Source: Luteimonas saliphila (GTDB taxonomy: Bacteria; Pseudomonadota; Gammaproteobacteria; Xanthomonadales; Xanthomonadaceae). Taken from it: a stretch of DNA of 64,000 bases. This document shows positions 3,414-52,548 of this stretch, one piece after another. Below the pieces are notes generated by a model. The model searched no databases, was not told the DNA's origin, and saw nothing but the letters and a program-made list of their open reading frames with translations. The DNA lies in contig NZ_JAETWA010000019.1 of the NCBI RefSeq assembly GCF_016774335.1, positions 1 through 64,000 on the forward strand. Reading direction: 5' to 3'. Positions within the stretch are counted from its first letter, which is position 1, and every line of letters starts with the position of its first letter. The translations under genes and the position numbers were made by a program.

Positions 3414-6321
3414 TGCGGGATGGGCGTGTTGCGGTGGCGGGTGTGGGGGGCGGGGTGCGTTCGGGTTGGCGTGGGGTCCCGGATGCGCTGCGCTTATCCG
3501 GGCTACGGGCGGTGCGGGGGCGGTGGCGGTGTTCTAGGCGGTCGGCGACGCGCTGGACGCGGGTGCGCCAGTCCTCGCTGCTGAGGGTACCGCGCATCGC
3601 TTCGGCCCACAGCGGGAACGACAGCGGGGTGAGCGACTTCGGGCGGCGCAGGTCGAGGGTGGCCGCGTGGCAGCGCGCCAGCGTCGCCTGCAGGGCGCGC
3701 ACTTCGAGCTGGGCCTCGAACACCTCGCGCTCGGCCTGCTGCAGCAGCAGGTGGCCGGGGTCGTGTCGCTGCAGCACGTCGAACAGCAGGCCGCTGGAGG
3801 CCTGCAGCTGGCGCAGGCTGCGCAGCGCGCGCCCGGGCAACGACGGCGGCAGCAGTCCGGCCACGCGCGCGATCTCGCGGAACTGGCGGCGCGCGAGTTC
3901 GGCGAGGTTGGCGCCGGACCGCAGGTCGTCGTGCAGGCCTTCGGGCGACAGCAGCGCGCGCAGGATATCGACGTCGATCGCCGGCTGCGCCTGCGCGGTC
4001 AATGCCAGCCCGTAGTCGTTGACCGCGAACGCGAACGTGTTGGGCGCCAGCCGGCTCCAGCGCAGCGCGAGCAGCGCGGCCAGCCCCTCGTGCACCCCAC
4101 GCCCGGCGAAGGGATAGACGAACAGGTGCCAGCCTTCGCGCGTCTTCGCGAATTCGGCGAGCAGCGTGCCCGGCGCCGGCAGCGCCGACAGCGTTTCCTG
4201 CAATGCGAGCAGCGGCGCCAGCGCGCGCAGTTCCGGTCCGTCGCGCGGACCGGCCAGCACCTGCGCCACCCGCGCGCCGAGCTCGCCCGACATCGGCATG
4301 CGCCCGCCCTGCCAGCGCGGCACGATGCCGTCGCCCTTTCTCGCGATGCGCACGTACGCGGCCATGTCCTGCAGGCGCACCAGCTCCAGGGTGCGGCCGG
4401 CGAACTGGAAGCGGTCGCGCGGGCGCAGGCGCGCCAGGAACCCTTCCTCCACGCTGCCCAGGGTGGCGCCGCGCAGCAGCTTCACCTGCAGCGCGCCATC
4501 GCTGGTGATGGTGCCGATCGACAGCCGGTGGCGCAGCGCGATGCGGCGGTCGTGCACGCGGTACACGCCGTCGTCGTCGCGCACCACGCGCCGGTATTCG
4601 GGATAGTGCTGCAGCGCCTGGCCGCCCTGGACGACGAAGGCGAGCACCGCGTTCCACTGCACGTCGCTGAGCACCGCGAACGCATGCGTGCCGCGCACTT
4701 CGTCGCGCAGCGCATCGGCCTCGAAGCCGCCACCCAGCGCCAGGGTGACGCAGTGCTGGGCGAGCACGTCGAGCGAGAGCCGCAGCGGCACGCGCGATTC
4801 CACTTCGCCCGCGGCCAGCGCCTTGCGCGCGGCGGCGTATTCGGCCAGTTCCAGCGCGTGGGTGGGCACGCAGACCACGTGCCCGGCTTCGCCCGGGCGA
4901 TGGCGCGCGCGGCCGGCGCGCTGCAGCAGCCGCGCCATGCCCTTGGGGCTGCCGAGCTGGATCACCTGGTCGACGGCGGGGAAATCGACTCCGAGGTCGA
5001 GGCTGGACGTGGCGACCACGCAGCGCACGCTGCCCTCGCGCAGGCCCTGCTCCACCGCGGCGCGCAGCTTCGGGTCGAGCGAGCCGTGGTGCAGGGCCAG
5101 GGTTTCCGGCGCGTCCAGCCAGGTGGCGGCCAGCGCGCGATGCCAGAGTTCGGCCTGCGCACGCGTGTTGGCGAACAGCAGCGTCGTGCCGGCGGCCTGC
5201 AGCCGCGCGGCCACGCGCTGCACCTGGGACAGGCCGAGGTGGCCGGCCCACGGGAAGCGTTCGCCGGCCTCGGGCAACAGGGTGTCCAGGGTCAGGCTGC
5301 GCGGTCTGGCTGCCTGCACGATCGCCGCGCCGGGTGCGTGCGGCAGCAGCACGTCTCGCGCCTGTTCGAGGTTGCCGAGCGTCGCCGACAGGCCCCAGGT
5401 GCGCGCCTGCGGCGCCCAGGCGCGCAGCCGCGCCAGCGCCAGTTGCAGCAGCACGCCACGCTTGTTGCCGAGCAGTTCGTGCCATTCGTCGACCACGATC
5501 GCGCGCAGGCCGGAGAGTTGCGCGGCGGTGTCGGGATAGCTCAGCAGCAGCGCCAGCGACTCGGGCGTGATCACCAGCGCATCGGCACCGCCCTGGCGCG
5601 CCAGGCGCTTGTCGCGCGCAGTCGCGTCGCCGGTGCGCATCGCCACGGTCCAGTCCAGGTCGAGCGCGGCGATGGGTTCGCGCAGGGCGCGCGCGGTGTC
5701 GTTTGCCAGCGCACGCAGCGGCGTGATCCAGAGAAGGCGGGTGCGGCCAACCGACGGCACCGCTGCCCTCCTGTCATTTCGAGCGAAGCGAGAAATCTGC
5801 TCTGCGGATACCTCCAGATTCCTCGCTTCGCTCGGAATGACAGTGGGGGAGAGGCGCGGGGTTGGATCGGGTCGCGCCTTCGGTGCGTCTGCGGCCAGTG
5901 ACTCTGGTTGGCGTGACGTCTGTGCCGTCAACACGCTTGCCGTCTGCGTCTTCGATGCGATTGCCGTTTGCTTCTTCAACGCGTTTGCCGCTTGTACTTT
6001 CGACGCACGTGCTGTTTGTGCGTTCGATGCGTTTGCTGTCTGCGCGATCGACGCGCGCGCCGATCGCGCCCTGGCAGTCTTCGCCTGCGCAGCGTCCCTT
6101 GCCGCTTTCGCCTGGGCCGCCTCCACCAGGGCGTCCAGTAGCGGCCCGCCCAGCGCGGCCAGGGTCTTGCCGCTGCCGGTGGGCGTGACCAGCAGGCCGG
6201 ACTCGCCACGCCGCCAGCGTCGCCAGGCCTCGCGCTGGAACGGCGCCGGACTCCAGCCCTGCGAGGCGAACCAGGCGGCGAGCGGCGCATCGAACGACGC
6301 GCGCGTCGCGGTCGGCTTCAT
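3406..6321 (-). CDS. lhr: Ligase-associated Lhr-type DEXH-box DNA helicase
   Basis: This 971-residue protein is an ATP-dependent 3'-5' DNA translocase/helicase of the Lhr-Core type. The Met chosen overlaps the ligase stop (ATGA at 6318-6321); the open frame continues upstream only as a shadow of the ligase gene. Motif I is TPTGSGKT (46-53), motif Ia is TPLRALAND (200-208) and the DEXH box is DEWH (278-281). Between motifs I and Ia, where relatives have a short loop, lies about 120 extra residues: six degenerate octapeptides (residues 89-136, type xASxxQTA) and then the translation of a palindromic repeat (about 160-184). A second repeat family is translated near the C-terminus (about 939-948, SPDKRSASG). 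The core motifs look intact, so function is probably kept. Confidence 0.93.
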   Translation of the reverse strand: MKPTATRASFDAPLAAWFASQGWSPAPFQREAWRRWRRGESGLLVTPTGSGKTLAALGGPLLDALVEAAQAKAARDAAQAKTARARSARASIAQTANASNAQTARASKVQAANALKKQTAIASKTQTASVLTAQTSRQPESLAADAPKARPDPTPRLSPTVIPSEARNLEVSAEQISRFARNDRRAAVPSVGRTRLLWITPLRALANDTARALREPIAALDLDWTVAMRTGDATARDKRLARQGGADALVITPESLALLLSYPDTAAQLSGLRAIVVDEWHELLGNKRGVLLQLALARLRAWAPQARTWGLSATLGNLEQARDVLLPHAPGAAIVQAARPRSLTLDTLLPEAGERFPWAGHLGLSQVQRVAARLQAAGTTLLFANTRAQAELWHRALAATWLDAPETLALHHGSLDPKLRAAVEQGLREGSVRCVVATSSLDLGVDFPAVDQVIQLGSPKGMARLLQRAGRARHRPGEAGHVVCVPTHALELAEYAAARKALAAGEVESRVPLRLSLDVLAQHCVTLALGGGFEADALRDEVRGTHAFAVLSDVQWNAVLAFVVQGGQALQHYPEYRRVVRDDDGVYRVHDRRIALRHRLSIGTITSDGALQVKLLRGATLGSVEEGFLARLRPRDRFQFAGRTLELVRLQDMAAYVRIARKGDGIVPRWQGGRMPMSGELGARVAQVLAGPRDGPELRALAPLLALQETLSALPAPGTLLAEFAKTREGWHLFVYPFAGRGVHEGLAALLALRWSRLAPNTFAFAVNDYGLALTAQAQPAIDVDILRALLSPEGLHDDLRSGANLAELARRQFREIARVAGLLPPSLPGRALRSLRQLQASSGLLFDVLQRHDPGHLLLQQAEREVFEAQLEVRALQATLARCHAATLDLRRPKSLTPLSFPLWAEAMRGTLSSEDWRTRVQRVADRLEHRHRPRTARSPDKRSASGTPRQPERTPPPTPATATRPSRNA
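3478..3507. repeat. Palindromic repeat family A copy inside the lhr 3' end
   Basis: This copy of the 30-bp GCCCGGATAAGCG-type palindrome lies inside the last 100 bases of lhr. Read on the minus strand it gives SPDKRSASG. The same peptide would be read from the equivalent frame of the intergenic copies, so the repeat appears to have landed in frame and lengthened or replaced the helicase C-terminus. Confidence 0.85.
5771..5842. repeat. Palindromic repeat family B pair inside lhr
   Basis: The two arms are TGTCATTTCGAGCGAAGCG on the left and its near-complement ending GCTCGGAATGACA on the right, about 70 bp in all. This is the family-B element found between genes at 20.3, 43.4, 45.3 and 54.5 kb. 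Here it sits inside the helicase frame between motif I and motif Ia and is translated as VIPSEARNLE then ISRFARNDR. Confidence 0.9.
5914..6057 (-). repeat. 24-bp minisatellite encoding octapeptide repeats in lhr
   Basis: Six consecutive degenerate 24-bp units on the minus strand encode octapeptides such as RASIAQTA, NASNAQTA and IASKTQTA. They lie within the non-conserved insertion of the Lhr helicase, just upstream of the translated palindrome. Every unit is a multiple of three, so copy changes would keep the frame. Confidence 0.75.
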
Positions 6322-45433: not shown

Positions 45434-45901
45434 TCACGCGCCATCGGGGATCTCGGGTTCGACCAGCTTCGCCAGCATGTCCAGCGATTCCTGCCAGCCC
45501 ATGTAGCAGAAGTCCACCGGGATCGCGGCCGGGATGCCCGCCTGCTCGACCTGCAGTTCGGTGCCGGCGATGCTCTTCTTCAGCGTCACCGTCACCTGCA
45601 TCTCGCCGGGCAACCCGGGATTGTCGAAGGTATCGGTCTGGCGGATGCGTTCGTTGGGCACCAGCTCGTCGTAGGTCACGCGGAAGGAGTGGCTGGACCC
45701 GGTGCCGAAATTGGTGAACGACATCCGGTAGCCGCCGCCGACGCGCGGGTCGAACGCGTGCATGGTCCCGGTGAAGCCGTTCGGCGGCAGCCATTTCACC
45801 ATCGCGTCGGCGTCGAGGAAGGCGCGGTAGACGCGCTCGGGCGGCGCGCGCAGCACGCGGTGCAGGCGGACGGTGCCGGTGGTGATGGTGGATTCGCTCA
45901 C
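45434..45901 (-). CDS. SRPBCC (AHSA1-like) family protein
   Basis: This 155-residue protein starts at GTG (read MSESTITTGTVRLHRVL). It shows the AHSA1/START-like pattern RAPPERVYRAFLDADAMVKW and GWQESLDMLAKLVEPEI at the end, with the central LPPNGFTGTM strand. These proteins have a hydrophobic cavity and bind lipids or aromatic ligands, or assist Hsp90 in eukaryotes. The longer open frame upstream crosses palindromes and is not coding. The role within the prp group is unknown. Confidence 0.85.
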   Translation of the reverse strand: MSESTITTGTVRLHRVLRAPPERVYRAFLDADAMVKWLPPNGFTGTMHAFDPRVGGGYRMSFTNFGTGSSHSFRVTYDELVPNERIRQTDTFDNPGLPGEMQVTVTLKKSIAGTELQVEQAGIPAAIPVDFCYMGWQESLDMLAKLVEPEIPDGA

Positions 45902-46001
45902 GCTTGTCTCCTTGCGAGTGGATGTCTTCCCACGACGAACCTCCGTACCCGCCTTCGACATCCTCCGTGTGTTGCCCCGTTGCGGGTCGTCTCCTTCCCC
46001 C

Positions 46002-46162
46002 GTAGCCCGGATAAGCGCAGCGCATCCGGGGATAACCCAGCGCTGCAGGCCAGCCTCCGCGGCCCCGGCCGCGAACGCGCCGTCCTCGTGTTCCCGCGAT
46101 CCCACATGCGGCACCGGACGCATGCGCGGGGTCCCGGATGCGCTGCGCTTATCCGGGCTACG
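46002..46162. repeat. Two palindromic repeats, family A, facing each other
   Basis: A direct copy (46002-46031) and an inverted copy (46132-46162) lie in the spacer between the SRPBCC gene and acnD, about 100 bp apart. The inverted copy ends directly before the acnD stop. Confidence 0.85.
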
Positions 46163-46163
46163 G

Positions 46164-48782
46164 TTACGCCGCCTTTGTCTGGGCCAGGAAATCCTGGGCG
46201 AAGCGCTGCAGCACGCCGCCGGCCTCAAAGATCGACTGCTCCTCGTCCGAATCCAGGCGGCAGGTCACCGGGACCTCGACCGTCTCGCCATCCTTGCGGT
46301 GGATCACCAGCGTCATCGACGAGCCCGGCGAGCGCTCGCCGACCACGTCGAAGGTCTCGCTGCCGTCGATGCCGAGGGTCAGCCGCGTGGTGCCCGGTTC
46401 GAATTCCAGCGGCAGCACGCCCATCCCCACCAGGTTGGTGCGGTGGATGCGCTCGAAGCCCTCGGCGACGATCGCCTCCACGCCCGCCAGGCGCACGCCC
46501 TTGGCCGCCCAGTCGCGCGAACTGCCCTGGCCGTAGTCGGCGCCGGCGACGATCAGCAGCGGCTGGTGTCGCTGCATGTAGGTCTCGATCGCCTCCCACA
46601 TCCGCACCACCTCGCCCTCCGGCTCGATCCGCGCGAGCGAGCCCTGCACCACGTTGCCCCCGGCGTCGCGCACCATCTCGTTGAGCAGCTTCGGGTTGGC
46701 GAAGGTCGCGCGTTGCGCGGTGAGATGGTCGCCGCGATGGGTGGCGTAGGAATTGAAGTCCTCCTCCGGCAGGCCCATCTTCGCCAGGTACTCGCCGGCC
46801 GCGCTGCCGGCCTGGATCGCATTCGAGGGCGAGAGGTGGTCGGTGGTGATGTTGTCGCCGAGCACCGCCAGCGCGCGCATGCCGCGCAGCGTGCGTTCGC
46901 CGGCGAGCGCGCCTTCCCAGTACGGCGGGCGGCGGATGTAGGTGCTCTGCGGGCGCCAGTCGTACAGCGGGCTCACCCGCTCGCCGCTGTCGACCTGCAG
47001 CTTGAACATCGGCCCGTACACCTGACGGTACTGTTCCGGCTTGACGCTGGCCTTGACCACCGCGTCGATCTCGGCGTCGTCCGGCCACAGGTCCTTGAGC
47101 GTGACCGGGTTGCCGTCCGCGTCGAACCCCAGCGCGTCCTTCTCGATGTCGAAGCGGATGGTGCCGGCGATGGCGTATGCGATCACCAGCGGCGGCGAGG
47201 CGAGAAAGGCCTGCTTCGCATAGGGGTGGATGCGGCCATCGAAGTTGCGGTTGCCCGAGAGCACCGCCACCGAGTACAGGTCGCGCTCGATGATCTCCTT
47301 CTGGATCGCCGGGTCCAGCGCACCGCTCATGCCGTTGCAGGTGGTGCAGGCGAAGCCGACGATGCCGAAGCCGAGCCGTTCGAGCTCGCCGAGCAGGCCG
47401 GCTTCCTCCAGGTACAGCTGCACCGCCTTCGAACCCGGCGCGAGCGAGCTCTTGACCCAGGGCTTGCGAACCAGCCCTTTCGCGTTGGCGTTGCGCGCAA
47501 GCAGGCCGGCGGCGATCACGTTGCGCGGATTGGAGGTATTGGTGCAGGAGGTGATCGCGGCGATGATCACCGCGCCGTCGGGCATCAGGCCCTGCGCTTC
47601 GCCGGCCACGCCGGCGTCGCGCTTGGCGGCGTCGGCGATGCCGCGCTCGGCCAGCGCGCTGGTCGGCAGCCGCCGGTGCGGGTTCGACGGACCGGCCATG
47701 TTGCGCACGACCGTCGAGAGATCGAAGTGCAGGGTGCGCTCGTAGCGCGCGTGCGCGAGGTCGTCGGCCCACAGTCCGGCAGCCTTCGCGTAGGTTTCCA
47801 CCAGCGCCACCTGCGCGTCCTCGCGGCCGGTCAGGCGCAAGTAGTCGAGGGTGTTGTCGTCGATGAAGAACATCGCCGCGGTCGCGCCGTACTCGGGCGC
47901 CATGTTCGAGATCGTGGCGCGGTCGCCGACGGTCAGCGCCGCCGCGCCCGGACCGCGGAATTCGAGATAGGCGCCGACCACCTTCTGCTGGCGCAGGAAT
48001 TCAGTCAGCGCCAGCACCACGTCGGTGGCGGTGATGCCCGGCGCGGGCCTGCCGGTGAGTTCGACGCCGATCATGTCCGGCGTGCGCATCCAAGAGGCGC
48101 GGCCGAGCATCACGTTCTCGGCCTCGAGCCCGCCGACGCCGATCGCGATCACGCCCAGCGCATCCACGTGCGGGGTGTGGCTGTCGGTGCCGACGCAGGT
48201 GTCGGGGAAGGCGACGCCGTCCTGCACGTACACCACCGGCGACATCTTCTCCAGGTTGATCTGGTGCATGATCCCGTTGCCCGGCGGGATCACGTCGACG
48301 TTGCGGAACGCGCGCTTCGTCCAGTCGATGAAGTGGAAGCGGTCGGCGTTGCGGCGATCCTCGATCGCGCGGTTGCCGGCGAACGCGTCCGGATCGCTGC
48401 CGCCGCATTCCACCGACAGCGAGTGGTCGACGATCAGCTGCACCGGCACCACGGGATTGACCCGGGCCGGATCGCCGCCTTGGTCGGCGATCGCATCGCG
48501 CAGGCCGGCCAGGTCGACCAGTGCGGTCTGGCCGAGGATGTCGTGGCACACCACGCGCGCCGGGAACCAGGGGAAGTCGAGGTCGCGGCGGCGTTCGACC
48601 AGCTGCACGAGATAGTCGTCGATGCGTTCGGGATCCGCGCGCCGCACGATGTTCTCGGCGTGCACGCGCGCGGTATACGGCAGCGTGGCCCAGGCGCCCG
48701 GGCGGACGGCCTCGACGGCTTCGCGCGCGTCGAACCAGTCGAGCGTGGTACCGGGAAGGGATTTTCGGTGCTGGCTGTTCAT
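46164..48782 (-). CDS. acnD: Fe/S-dependent 2-methylisocitrate dehydratase AcnD
   Basis: This 872-residue aconitase-type enzyme dehydrates 2-methylcitrate. Its 4Fe-4S ligands are in TSCTNTSNPRN and GFACTTCNGMSG. The swivel domain holds GADYGQGSSRDWAAKG. The length and the neighbours prpF, prpC and prpB favour AcnD over housekeeping AcnA. The start MNSQHRKSLPG was chosen because upstream in-frame codons run through a repeat-rich spacer. The gene follows prpC on the same strand, with an inverted-repeat spacer of 162 bp between. Confidence 0.92.
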   Translation of the reverse strand: MNSQHRKSLPGTTLDWFDAREAVEAVRPGAWATLPYTARVHAENIVRRADPERIDDYLVQLVERRRDLDFPWFPARVVCHDILGQTALVDLAGLRDAIADQGGDPARVNPVVPVQLIVDHSLSVECGGSDPDAFAGNRAIEDRRNADRFHFIDWTKRAFRNVDVIPPGNGIMHQINLEKMSPVVYVQDGVAFPDTCVGTDSHTPHVDALGVIAIGVGGLEAENVMLGRASWMRTPDMIGVELTGRPAPGITATDVVLALTEFLRQQKVVGAYLEFRGPGAAALTVGDRATISNMAPEYGATAAMFFIDDNTLDYLRLTGREDAQVALVETYAKAAGLWADDLAHARYERTLHFDLSTVVRNMAGPSNPHRRLPTSALAERGIADAAKRDAGVAGEAQGLMPDGAVIIAAITSCTNTSNPRNVIAAGLLARNANAKGLVRKPWVKSSLAPGSKAVQLYLEEAGLLGELERLGFGIVGFACTTCNGMSGALDPAIQKEIIERDLYSVAVLSGNRNFDGRIHPYAKQAFLASPPLVIAYAIAGTIRFDIEKDALGFDADGNPVTLKDLWPDDAEIDAVVKASVKPEQYRQVYGPMFKLQVDSGERVSPLYDWRPQSTYIRRPPYWEGALAGERTLRGMRALAVLGDNITTDHLSPSNAIQAGSAAGEYLAKMGLPEEDFNSYATHRGDHLTAQRATFANPKLLNEMVRDAGGNVVQGSLARIEPEGEVVRMWEAIETYMQRHQPLLIVAGADYGQGSSRDWAAKGVRLAGVEAIVAEGFERIHRTNLVGMGVLPLEFEPGTTRLTLGIDGSETFDVVGERSPGSSMTLVIHRKDGETVEVPVTCRLDSDEEQSIFEAGGVLQRFAQDFLAQTKAA

Positions 48783-48944: not shown

Positions 48945-50099
48945 TCAGCGCTCGCCGATCGGCACGTAGGTCCGGTCTTCCGGACCGGTGTAGTTCGCGC
49001 TCGGGCGGATGATCTTGCCGTCGATGCGCTGTTCGATCACGTGCGCGCTCCAGCCGCTGGTGCGCGAGATCACGAACAGCGGCGTGAACATCGCCGTCGG
49101 CACGCCCATCATGTGGTAGCTCACCGCGCTGAACCAGTCGAGGTTCGGGAACATCTTCTTGATGTCCCACATCACCGTCTCCAGGCGCTCGGCGATGTCG
49201 TACATCTTCGTGCTGCCGGCTTCCTCGGACAGGTCCTTCGCCACCTGCTTGATCACCTGGTTGCGCGGATCGGACACGGTGTAGACCGGATGGCCGAAGC
49301 CGATCACCACTTCCTTGCGCTCGACCCGCGCGCGGATGTCGGCCTCGGCCTCGTCGGGCGTGTCGTAGCGCTTCTGGATCTCGAACGCGACCTCGTTGGC
49401 CCCGCCGTGCTTCGGCCCGCGCAGCGCGCCGATCGCGCCGCAGATCGCGCTGTACATGTCGCTGCCGGTGCCGGCGATGACGCGTCCGGCGAAGGTCGAG
49501 GCGTTGAACTCGTGCTCGGCGTACAGGATCAGCGAGGTGTGCATCGCCCGCACCCAGCTGTCCTTCGGCGGATGGCCGTGCAACAGGTGCAGGAAGTGGC
49601 CGCCGATGGAATCGTCGTCGGTCTCGACGTCGATGACGCGGCCGTTGTGGCTCCAGTGGTACCAGTACAGCAGCATCGAGCCGAGCGAGGCCATCAGCCT
49701 GTCGGCGATGTCGCGCGCGCCCGGATGGTTGTGGTCGTCCTTTTCCGGCAGCACGCAGCCCAGCACCGACACGCCGGTGCGCATCACGTCCATCGGGTGC
49801 GCCGAGGCCGGCAGCTCCTCCAGCGCGGCCTTGACCGCGGCCGGCAGCCCGCGCAGCGACTTCAGCTTCGCCTTGTAGCCGCGCAGCTCGGCCGCGCTCG
49901 GTAGCTTGCCGTGCACCAGCAGGTAGGCGATCTCCTCGAACTCGGCGGTCTGCGCGAAGTCGAGGATGTCGTAGCCGCGATAGGCCAGGTCGTTGCCGGT
50001 GCGGCCGACCGTGCACAGCGCGGTGTTGCCGGCGGCGGTGCCGGACAGGGCCACCGACTTCTTCGGCTTGAACGGCGTGGCGGGATGGGCTTGGCTCAT
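48945..50099 (-). CDS. prpC: 2-methylcitrate synthase
   Basis: This 384-residue citrate-synthase-fold enzyme condenses propionyl-CoA with oxaloacetate. The conserved His are at 196 (AEHEFN) and 231 (KHGGAN), [14 protein letters not shown] follows, and the catalytic Asp is in [26 protein letters not shown] near the N-terminus is typical of PrpC rather than GltA. The ATG lies 193 bp downstream of the prpB stop, and no gene lies in that gap. Confidence 0.93.
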
Positions 50100-50292: not shown

Positions 50293-51192
50293 TCATTGCT
50301 TCCGGAACAGCGCGTCGAGCTTGCGTTCGAAGGCGTGGTAGCCGATGCGCTCGTACAGCTCCTCGCGCGTCTGCATCATCCCGACCACGGCCTGCTGGTG
50401 GCCGTCGCGGCGGATCGCCTCGTACACCGTCTCGGCGGCCTTGTTCATGGCGCGGAACGCCGACAGCGGGTAGAGCTGGATCGCCACGCCGGCCGAGGCC
50501 AGTTCCTCGCGCGTGAACAGCGGCGTCGCGCCGAACTCGGTGATGTTGGCCAGCACCGGCACCTCGACCGCATCCACGAACCGGCGGTAGGTCTCGAGGT
50601 CGTACGCAGCCTCGGCGAAGATGCCGTCGGCGCCCGCTTCCACACAGGCGATGGCGCGTTCGATCGCGGCGTCCACGCCGTCGACCTGGATCGCATCGGT
50701 GCGCGCGATCAGGAAGAAGTCCGCATCGGTCTTCGCATCGGCTGCGGCCTTGACCCGGTCGACCATCTCGCCCTGCGACACGATCTCCTTGCCCGGGCGA
50801 TGGCCGCAGCGCTTGGCGCCGACCTGGTCCTCGATGTGGCAGGCGGCCGCACCGGCCTTGATCAGCGACTTGACGGTGCGCTCGATGTTGAAGGCGCTGG
50901 GGCCGAAGCCGGTGTCGATGTCGACCAGCAGCGGCAGCGCGCAGACATCGGTGATGCGGCGCACATCGATCAGCACATCCTCGAGCGTGTTGATGCCCAG
51001 GTCGGGCAGGCCCAGCGAACCCGCGGCGACACCACCGCCGGACAGGTAGATGGCGCGATAACCGGCCCGCTGCGCGAGCAGGGCGTGGTTGGCGTTGATC
51101 GCGCCGACCACCTGCAGCGGCGACTCGGCGGCGAGGGCGGCGCGGAACCGGGCGCCCGGTGACGCGGGGACGGCGGCGGGATCGTGGCTCAT
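50293..51192 (-). CDS. prpB: 2-methylisocitrate lyase
   Basis: This 299-residue enzyme splits 2-methylisocitrate to succinate and pyruvate. It has the lyase motif KRCGH (residues 127-131, active Cys129), metal-binding DIDTGFG near 91, and the ICL/PEPM fold length. The ATG in GTGGCTCAT context is preferred; a longer open frame exists upstream but would run into the operator. It is the first gene of the prp group and reads away from the HTH-citrate synthase gene. Confidence 0.94.
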
Positions 51193-51252
51193 CGGCGTGG
51201 CGTCTGGCGGCGGGGATTCCCGGATGCCACGCAATGTGGCACTCTTCCTCGG

Positions 51253-51281
51253 GTTGATCAATCTTGATCGGACAGATCAAC
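51253..51281. promoter_or_regulatory. Candidate operator between prpB and the HTH-citrate synthase gene
   Basis: Three half-sites lie within 29 bp: GTTGATC (51253-51259), CTTGATC (51263-51269) and the inverted GATCAAC (51275-51281). The outer pair makes a perfect seven-base inverted repeat. The site is centred in the 111-bp gap between the divergent genes, 61 bp from prpB and 23 bp from the regulator-like gene, well placed for control of both. Confidence 0.65.
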
Positions 51282-51303
51282 CTGTCTTCCGACGAGCCTG
51301 CCG

Positions 51304-52548
51304 ATGCACACGCCTGCCGACGCCGAGCTGATCCCCGCCCCCGAGGCCTGCGCCCTGCTCGGGATCAGCGCGTCGACGCTGTACGCCTACGTCAGCCGCG
51401 GCCTGATCGAATCGCGGCCGGGCCCCGACCATCGCAGCCGGGTCTACCTGCGCCGCGACGTCGAGCGCCTGGCCCAGCGCAAGCAGGCCGGGCGCGGGGC
51501 GGCGCGCGGGGCGGCGCAGAGCCTCGACCGCGGGCTGCCGGTAATGGAAACCGCGATCTCGCTGATCCGCCCCGACGGGCCCTGCTACCGCGGCCGCCCC
51601 GCGGTGGCGCTGGTCCGCGCCGGGGCCACGCTGGAGGATGCCGCGCGCCTGCTGTGGGACTGCGGCGAGCTCGATCCCTTCGACCCGCCGCCAGCGATCG
51701 GCTGGCCGGCGCGGGTGGCGCCGCTGGCCACCGACGCGACGCTGCCGCCGCTGGAACGCGCGATGGCGGCGATCCCGCTGCTGGCCGTCGACCAGCGCCA
51801 CACCCTCAACGCCGCGCCGGCGATCAAGCGCCGCATCGCCGCCACCCTGCTGCGCCAGAACGCCGCGCTGCTGGTGGCCGGCACGCCCGATGCGCGCCCG
51901 GTGCACCAGCTGCTGGCCGATGCCTGGCGACCGGGCGATGCCGGATTCGTCGAGCTCGTCCGCGCCGCGCTGGTGCTGTGCGCCGACCATGAACTCAACG
52001 TCTCCGCCTTCGCCGCGCGCGTGGTCGCGTCCACCGGCGCGCACCTGCACGCCACCGTCTGCGCCGGCCTGGCCGCGCTGTCCGGACCACGCCATGGCGG
52101 CGCCACCGCGCGCGCGTACGCCCTGCTCGCAGATGGCGCCGAGGCACGCTCGCCCGGGGCCCTGGTCCACGAACGCTGGCAGCGCGGCGACGAACTCCCC
52201 GGCTTCCACCACGTGCTCTATCCCGATGGCGACCCGCGTGGCGCGGAACTGCTGGCGATGCTGCGAGCGCGCTGCGCGGGCAACCCGCGCATGGCCGAGG
52301 TCGAGGCCCTGGTCGCCGCCGCGGCCGACACCAGTGGCCGGCTGCCCAACATCGACGGCATGCTCGCCGCGCTCTGCCATGTGCACGGACTCGGCCCGGC
52401 GCCGGCCCTGGTCCTGTTCGCCGCCGGCCGCCTGGCGGGTTGGCTCGCCCACGCCCAGGAGCAGCAGGACCGCGGCCGCCTGATCCGGCCTCGCGCGCAG
52501 TATGTCGGGGTGGTGCCGGAGCCGGCGGACGACCCGCCGCCGGGCTGA
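51304..52548 (+). CDS. Citrate synthase fused to an N-terminal MerR/excisionase-type DNA-binding domain
   Basis: This 414-residue protein has an HTH domain at about 8-60 (IPAPEACALLGISASTLYAYV, SRVYLRRDVERLA) and a citrate synthase domain at 75-400. Key positions survive: H229 in ADHELN, H264 in GPRHGGA, FHHVLY with DPR where GFGHxxY-DPR is usual, and D351 in NIDGML. It diverges from prpB across 111 bp that hold a clear inverted repeat. It may be a regulator that senses oxaloacetate, propionyl-CoA or methylcitrate, or an active synthase that also binds DNA. Similar fusions exist in databases as citrate synthase family proteins; no role for them is known to me. Confidence 0.85.
   Translation: MHTPADAELIPAPEACALLGISASTLYAYVSRGLIESRPGPDHRSRVYLRRDVERLAQRKQAGRGAARGAAQSLDRGLPVMETAISLIRPDGPCYRGRPAVALVRAGATLEDAARLLWDCGELDPFDPPPAIGWPARVAPLATDATLPPLERAMAAIPLLAVDQRHTLNAAPAIKRRIAATLLRQNAALLVAGTPDARPVHQLLADAWRPGDAGFVELVRAALVLCADHELNVSAFAARVVASTGAHLHATVCAGLAALSGPRHGGATARAYALLADGAEARSPGALVHERWQRGDELPGFHHVLYPDGDPRGAELLAMLRARCAGNPRMAEVEALVAAAADTSGRLPNIDGMLAALCHVHGLGPAPALVLFAAGRLAGWLAHAQEQQDRGRLIRPRAQYVGVVPEPADDPPPG

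Follow-up and report, generated by a model that had tools for sequence, protein, structure and literature searches.

Helix-turn-helix (HTH) domains fused to an enzyme fold are already known as a kind of regulator (MocR, ROK and BirA are examples), and in MocR/PdxR, ROK/NagC, BirA and NadR the HTH is joined to a metabolic-enzyme fold that acts as the sensor; to our knowledge, none of these uses the citrate synthase (CS) fold. For the methylcitrate cycle, the available excerpts of one study (PMC9765439) name 2-methylcitrate as the coactivator of the Fis-type PrpR and state that all analysed Xanthomonadales use this regulator. Here we describe a different candidate, the gene HTH-CS, in a stretch of 64,000 nucleotides from Luteimonas saliphila (NZ_JAETWA010000019.1, positions 1 to 64,000; the window), where it lies divergently from the methylcitrate genes prpB, prpC and acnD. 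Judged from sequence comparisons, HTH-CS is very probably a dedicated transcription factor of the one-component type, with the CS fold as its sensor, and controls prpBC-acnD and itself. Comparative genomics gives the domain make-up, a tight association between protein and DNA site, sites at target operons away from HTH-CS, and the replacement of HTH-CS by PrpR; a cognate operator at the HTH-CS target is predicted from a strong in silico association.

In agreement with the first-pass annotation, which had read the product as an excisionase/MerR-like HTH on a CS domain with H229, H264 and D351 retained, Pfam finds HTH_17 above its cut-off (32.3 bits against 27) and Citrate_synt with an E value of 4e-56 (Table 1). 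No other domain was found, neither PrpR_N and Sigma54_activat nor a GntR winged HTH (wHTH) with an FCD/UTRA effector domain; two MerR models score just under their cut-offs (MerR 24.6 against 28.2 bits, MerR_1 20.8 against 21.6). In a 29-row alignment of the window protein and 28 orthologs, the helix TLYAYVSRG and residues H229, H264, H303, R312, D351, R376 and R395 show no variation, and the CS fold and the catalytic His/His/Asp of citrate/2-methylcitrate synthases are both present in HTH-CS. No NCBI model names the family: the top NCBIfam score is 142.7 bits against a cut-off of 332, and the 2-methylcitrate synthase equivalog scores 110.9 against 550. An unrooted tree of 58 proteins, with long branches, places 50 HTH-CS proteins on one side of a 100/100 branch and eight plain CS proteins on the other. 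Plasmid records label members of the family 'citrate synthase family protein', 'citrate synthase' or 'citrate/2-methylcitrate synthase'.

The AlphaFold model has a mean pLDDT of 78, with the linker (residues 66-94) under 50; it leaves the placement of the HTH on the CS domain unfixed, and we therefore make no claim on dimer geometry. VIA-align assigns the CS fold to the model (Z 24.8-27.9 among the 50 matches listed), its rows covering residues 16-414, so that the HTH was barely tested. The best Foldseek match is PrpC (E 1.7e-9), and nearly all PDB matches listed, from sequence as well as fold comparison, bear the names of citrate/methylcitrate synthases or citryl-CoA/ATP-citrate lyases. Among the 60 of 75 PDB sequence matches listed, the best stretches start at residue 95 at the earliest, with no solved relative that carries an HTH.

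HTH-CS had also been said to face prpB across 111 bp that hold an inverted repeat and a third half-site, and the coordinates agree. With the likeliest prpB start, chosen by inspection, at the ATG at 51192 (MSHDP...), the spacer spans 51193-51303 and is 111 bp long, with half-sites GTTGATC at 51253-51259, TTGATC at 51264-51269 and GATCAAC at 51275-51281. In most near relatives, as in the window, the TTGAT repeats lie 10 bp apart. The longest prpB open reading frame (ORF) opens with a TTG inside the operator (51193-51261, minus strand), and automatic annotation may take this TTG, rather than ATG 51192, as the prpB start.

Inspection of the intergenic regions of 81 loci, the window's included, 80 of them distinct, yields a near-constant block, TTGATCAATCTTGAT(C/T)N5(A/G)ATCAA. 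Written as TCAATMTTGAT-N7-ATCAA, the site is exact in 77 of the 80 regions and has one mismatch in three; in 77 it follows a TTGA. At a constant 12 bp from TTGATCAA, all 80 have a -10-like block, CAATSTSKCA, which is exact in 59 regions and has one mismatch in 20 and two in one. We read these regions on the prpB strand as TTGATC-17 bp-CAGATT with TGC before the -10-like hexamer, which in the window is CACATT. Since the presumed prpB -35 overlaps the site, which stops 23 bp short of the HTH-CS start codon, a protein bound there should both autoregulate and control prpBC-acnD. MerR family operators lie in overlong spacers of 19-20 bp between -35 and -10; the spacer of the putative prpB promoter is read here as 17 bp, with the site overlapping the -35. 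In its N6-R form, with up to two mismatches, the family motif has a single copy in the whole 4.65-Mb genome, at 51258-51280, which is more than chance. An exact TTGATC-N6-GATCAA pattern was rejected: it has zero matches in the genome, and the window spacing in that form is N5.

Within the Xanthomonadaceae (Lysobacteraceae is another name for this family), protein and site occur together. The same set of 297 genomes was searched for the HTH-CS protein and for the exact site. HTH-CS (best matches at E <= 2.6e-109; none better than 7.8e-36, the level of plain CS, in the remainder) is found in 88 genomes, a perfect site in the same 88, and neither in 209 (Fisher p 8e-78, kinship ignored); a few of the 88 are fragments or assemblies of low completeness (G104, G228, G292). 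The backward pattern, used as a control, has no match in the 297 genomes. Genomes with HTH-CS each carry a single exact copy, and those without it carry none; in 87/88 this copy precedes HTH-CS in the same orientation, the distance to the start of the protein match being 0-28 bp in 85 genomes and 40 and 225 bp in the other two.

In the 88th genome (G230), the perfect site is on another contig, directly upstream of an acnD gene outside the prp cluster that is 82% identical to acnD of the window. This site keeps, as read by eye, the CAATCTGGCA-12 bp-TTGATCAATC spacing found before prpB, CAATCTGGCA being the -10-like block, while the spacer between prpB and HTH-CS holds a copy of the site with one mismatch. 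Hence the site appears to serve prp structural genes, beyond HTH-CS alone, in this one genome. The two G230 loci are L217 and L218, acnD having its own copy of operator and promoter block.

The expectation that HTH-CS is always next to prpB held in the near clade and failed beyond it. An ortholog scan gave 231 confirmed loci, the best 80 of which were kept (Luteimonas, Pseudoxanthomonas, Stenotrophomonas, Xanthomonas, Lysobacter, relatives and some metagenome-assembled genomes). All 110 loci with a strong HTH-CS match, out of 112 that include the window's own and some repeats of one species, have a divergent prpB beside it. The loci kept are those most like the query, and this result covers the near clade only. 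Outside the family, one of 43 loci (L150) faces a prp-type gene: this locus, from the same taxonomic order as the window, faces acnD and an apparent prpF, named by eye, and neither prpB nor prpC has a relative within the 17.5 kb fetched.

Relatives that lack HTH-CS point to PrpR as its counterpart. We found prpB in 20/20 chosen family genomes without HTH-CS; 16 of these 20 loci were fetched and seven ORFs from them scanned with Pfam. PrpR with PrpR_N and Sigma54_activat was confirmed in three loci (L242, L245, L248), and the other ORFs are an acyl-CoA synthetase (L241), an RCC1-repeat protein (L252) and two without a family (L247, L249). In five of six genomes without HTH-CS whose coordinates could be compared (G001, G017, G064, G071, G098), PrpR is divergent from prpB and adjoins it; in G022 it is 3.5 kb away. 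At E <= 1e-120, PrpR is present in 16/149 family genomes, and none of the 16 is among the HTH-CS genomes. In L241, which lacks HTH-CS, prpB is directly preceded by the acyl-CoA synthetase gene (prpE-like, Pfam) in the same orientation; L243 and L246 look alike by eye. The first-pass annotation had reported no PrpR- or GntR-type prp regulator in the window, and this can be widened: the whole genome has no PrpR at the same threshold, and its three GntR-domain genes all lie off the window's contig (C17), regulator families beyond PrpR and GntR not having been searched for.

The association extends beyond the family. In a phylum sample of 299 genomes, with HTH-CS counted at E <= 1e-45, the protein is present in 34 and the exact site in 31, the backward control giving one match. 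Both occur in 29 genomes (four of them Xanthomonadaceae), the site only in two and HTH-CS only in five; three of these five have sites with one mismatch and two have none. We examined 43 outside loci (L143-L185), 20 from phylum genomes (of 30 outside the family) and 23 from plasmid records; several are near-copies, leaving fewer than 43 independent cases. As in the 29 aligned rows, HTH and enzyme fold are joined in a single chain in all 43. By a mismatch count over -120 to +45, the site beside HTH-CS is exact in 27 loci, has one mismatch in five and two in one (33/43 within two mismatches). Among 4300 upstreams shuffled in two-base blocks, one reached two mismatches and none fewer. Both Deinococcus loci have an exact site but with a spacer of 6, and the record of L184 begins too near HTH-CS to judge. 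The mismatch count was set up after the sequences had been seen, and the 43 loci are therefore not a blind test; the pattern was already fixed when the 297- and 299-genome samples were searched, but 20 of the 43 loci, those from the phylum sample, had helped to set it.

The genes divergent from HTH-CS vary among the outside loci, so that one site is common to different present neighbours. The divergent neighbour is a plain CS in 19/43 (annotation or tblastn), a 2-hydroxyacid dehydrogenase in five (L149 and L157 by sequence resemblance only), an MFS transporter in four, a CoA-transferase III in three (Pfam or annotation) and a 'pyruvate carboxyltransferase' in two, the Deinococcus plasmid loci L182 and L183; three loci have other or unclear neighbours (L155, L165, L170). 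A row of SDR, MFS and VOC genes is found in six loci, L184 included. In five of Burkholderia type (L173, L175, L179, L180, L185), HTH-CS is the last gene of this one-strand row, and sites with 0-1 mismatches stand at the head of the row, between the row and a divergent D-glycerate dehydrogenase gene, with none near HTH-CS itself. Apart from these row-head sites and weak overlaps on the other strand, the 43 loci hold no further N7-form site within two mismatches. In L143 (A. fabrum plasmid At), the plain CS divergent from HTH-CS (4791-5891) has a Glu aligned at the catalytic Asp, where the alignment could be off.

None of the 43 outside loci has more than two substitutions in the helix TLYAYVSRG, whose SRG end is altered in L165 alone. 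The catalytic set is retained in most members, with exceptions at N303 in L154, Q303 in L155 and H376 in L161, and Q replaces H229 in four transporter-linked members (L146, L171, L176, L178). The most divergent member is L165 (G349 C3:299944-301107), with TLYAYVGRK for the helix, H264, H303 and D351 lost and the site absent upstream; it thereby lends itself to a test of co-loss. It is likely that the HTH-CS proteins of Proteobacteria and Deinococcus form one transcription-factor family, in which the CS fold was turned into an effector sensor and one ancient operator, TCAATMTTGAT-N6/7-ATCAA, was rewired to different acyl-CoA and 2-hydroxy/oxo-acid genes. The pocket would have changed (H229 to Q) in some transporter-linked members, and in the window's family the protein would be a prp regulator that trades places with PrpR.

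For the window, we propose that the N-terminal winged helix would bind the three-half-site operator between HTH-CS and prpB, and that the C-terminal CS domain would dimerise, the CS fold being one that forms dimers. The former active site may take up 2-methylcitrate, oxaloacetate and/or propionyl-CoA, metabolites of the methylcitrate cycle, and this would switch DNA binding; the effector is probably a ligand of this CS pocket. HTH-CS would repress prpBC-acnD and itself until the ligand releases it. Repression of prpB is favoured over activation, and autorepression of HTH-CS is likely, with the site ending close to its start codon. The earlier proposal of a DNA-binding regulator on a shared operator is strongly supported, as far as sequence can tell, by the co-occurrence, the relocated site and the presence of PrpR in the position of HTH-CS in relatives.

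Several observations weigh against this assignment. DNA binding by HTH-CS, its effector, the sign of its action and its dimerisation are all steps that we infer. A consensus promoter scan of the prpB region found no promoter, and the prpB promoter is accordingly deduced from conservation alone. The own genome lacks a second site within two mismatches, which leaves G230 as the one apparent case of regulation in trans. In-frame stops occur in five of the 88 matches to HTH-CS (G089, G216, G220, G240, G292), with the site exact in each; these copies may be pseudogenes or assembly errors. No site was found at L155 and L165. Conversely, two phylum genomes (G332 and G535) have a site without HTH-CS, the stretches fetched there (16.0 and 3.9 kb) holding no HTH-CS match; we regard these sites as chance. 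A first profile test, trained on near-clade sites, placed only 28/43 outside loci above all local background; its window stopped before the start codon and cut overlapping sites, and it was replaced by the mismatch count. Finally, with the catalytic residues kept in most members, an enzyme role would be compatible with the sequences, and the moonlighting synthase that the first-pass annotation had offered as its alternative likewise stays compatible.

Such a role would make HTH-CS a trigger enzyme, an active (methyl)citrate or related synthase or lyase that also binds DNA and regulates, as PutA and BirA do. The retention of H264, H303, D351 and the oxaloacetate-binding residues in the window's clade and most relatives agrees with this, as does the nature of the listed PDB matches, but prpC next door is already named for the same activity, and key residues are lost in members that bear the site (N303 in L154; Q229 in L146, L171, L176 and L178). 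We consider a retained catalytic function unlikely, while giving it some weight. Bound next to the -35 and loaded with ligand, HTH-CS could also be an activator rather than a repressor and recruit polymerase to prpB, which is possible, if doubtful. In favour, the promoter looks weak and its presumed -35 overlaps the site, and the available excerpts of PMC9765439 describe the PrpR type able to take the place of HTH-CS as an activator whose coactivator in Salmonella is 2-methylcitrate. The same excerpts report the GntR-type PrpR of P. aeruginosa as a repressor, and on our reading a promoter with this 17-bp spacing, constant in the 80 regions, and with TGC in front of its -10-like hexamer would seem self-sufficient.

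That HTH-CS represses only itself, any effect on prpBC-acnD being incidental to the common intergenic region, would fit the position and orientation of the site in 87/88 family genomes. It is very improbable in view of the dislocated acnD of G230, which has its own perfect site with the prpB promoter spacing, of the Burkholderia-type loci, where sites stand before other genes and not before HTH-CS, and of PrpR, which occupies the same position in relatives. The least credible account takes the repeats as the site of a global regulator such as FNR/ANR, or as a promoter element, unrelated to HTH-CS. The letters TTGAT...ATCAA do resemble the FNR/ANR box, and the two phylum genomes with a site and no HTH-CS would be accommodated; the spacing, however, is N7 here against N4 in FNR/ANR, and the site is conserved in distant bacteria despite different neighbouring genes. 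The co-occurrence with HTH-CS, at one exact copy per family genome, largely contradicts this account.

The features of the locus are collected in Table 1. The three genes on the other strand, divergent from HTH-CS, are each identified at equivalog level. Beyond acnD, an ORF at 45434-46228 (minus strand) encodes by eye an SRPBCC/AHSA1-type protein.

Table 1. Coordinates of HTH-CS, its predicted operator and the adjoining prp genes in the window.
Feature	Positions	Strand	Basis
HTH-CS gene, 414 aa, proposed transcription factor	51304..52548	+	ORF list, Pfam, alignment
HTH_17/MerR-like winged-helix domain, residues 13-60 (helix TLYAYVSRG, 25-33)	51340..51483	+	Pfam 1.2e-7
CS domain, residues 76-397, proposed effector-sensing	51529..52494	+	Pfam, alignments, structure matches
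Predicted operator, half-sites GTTGATC / TTGATC / GATCAAC	51253..51281		read in window and near relatives
Family-wide site TCAATMTTGAT-N7-ATCAA	51258..51280	+	comparative genome searches
Inferred prpB promoter: -35 TTGATC 51256-51261 (inside operator), 17 bp, -10 CACATT 51233-51238 after TGC	51233..51261	-	read from sequence, conserved spacing
prpB, methylisocitrate lyase	50293..51192	-	equivalog; start chosen by inspection
prpC, 2-methylcitrate synthase	48945..50099	-	equivalog; start chosen by inspection
acnD, Fe/S 2-methylisocitrate dehydratase	46164..48782	-	equivalog; start chosen by inspection

In the open full-text literature we found no description of an HTH-citrate synthase regulator, an earlier comparative study of prp regulation in proteobacteria lying outside that scope. 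A Streptomyces citrate synthase-like protein was set aside as a precedent, the available part of its description making no mention of DNA binding by that protein. If the proposed role is correct, a widespread group of 'citrate synthases' would turn out to be gene switches under a wrong label, with a ready binding motif for mapping their targets, a fold of central metabolism would join the small list of enzyme folds reused as transcriptional sensors, and a new candidate sensor for methylcitrate or propionyl-CoA would be at hand. The statement on PrpR use throughout the Xanthomonadales, as it stands in the available excerpts of PMC9765439, is refined by the counts in the window's family, 88/297 genomes for HTH-CS and 16/149 for PrpR.

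Compared with known systems, HTH-CS shares with PrpC and other type II citrate synthases the CS fold and the active-site residues, and differs from them by its N-terminal HTH, scores far below the NCBIfam cut-offs and a separate branch in the tree. With BldC and MerR-like HTH proteins it has a MerR-like wHTH in common, to which it adds the CS domain. The PrpR of Mycobacterium tuberculosis is likewise a regulator of the methylcitrate cycle and binds CoA/acyl-CoA, but has another overall structure and a 4Fe4S cluster, according to the available excerpts of PMC6765138. The GntR-family PrpR of Pseudomonas aeruginosa (PA0797), in the available excerpts of PMC9765439, regulates the methylcitrate operon locally, as proposed for HTH-CS, from a palindromic site and reportedly as a repressor; it differs in its GntR wHTH with an FCD domain and in its site, ATTGTCGACAAT. 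The sigma-54-dependent Fis-family PrpR resembles HTH-CS in being divergent from prpB and holds the same place in relatives without HTH-CS, whereas it consists of PrpR_N and Sigma54_activat, neither of which HTH-CS has.
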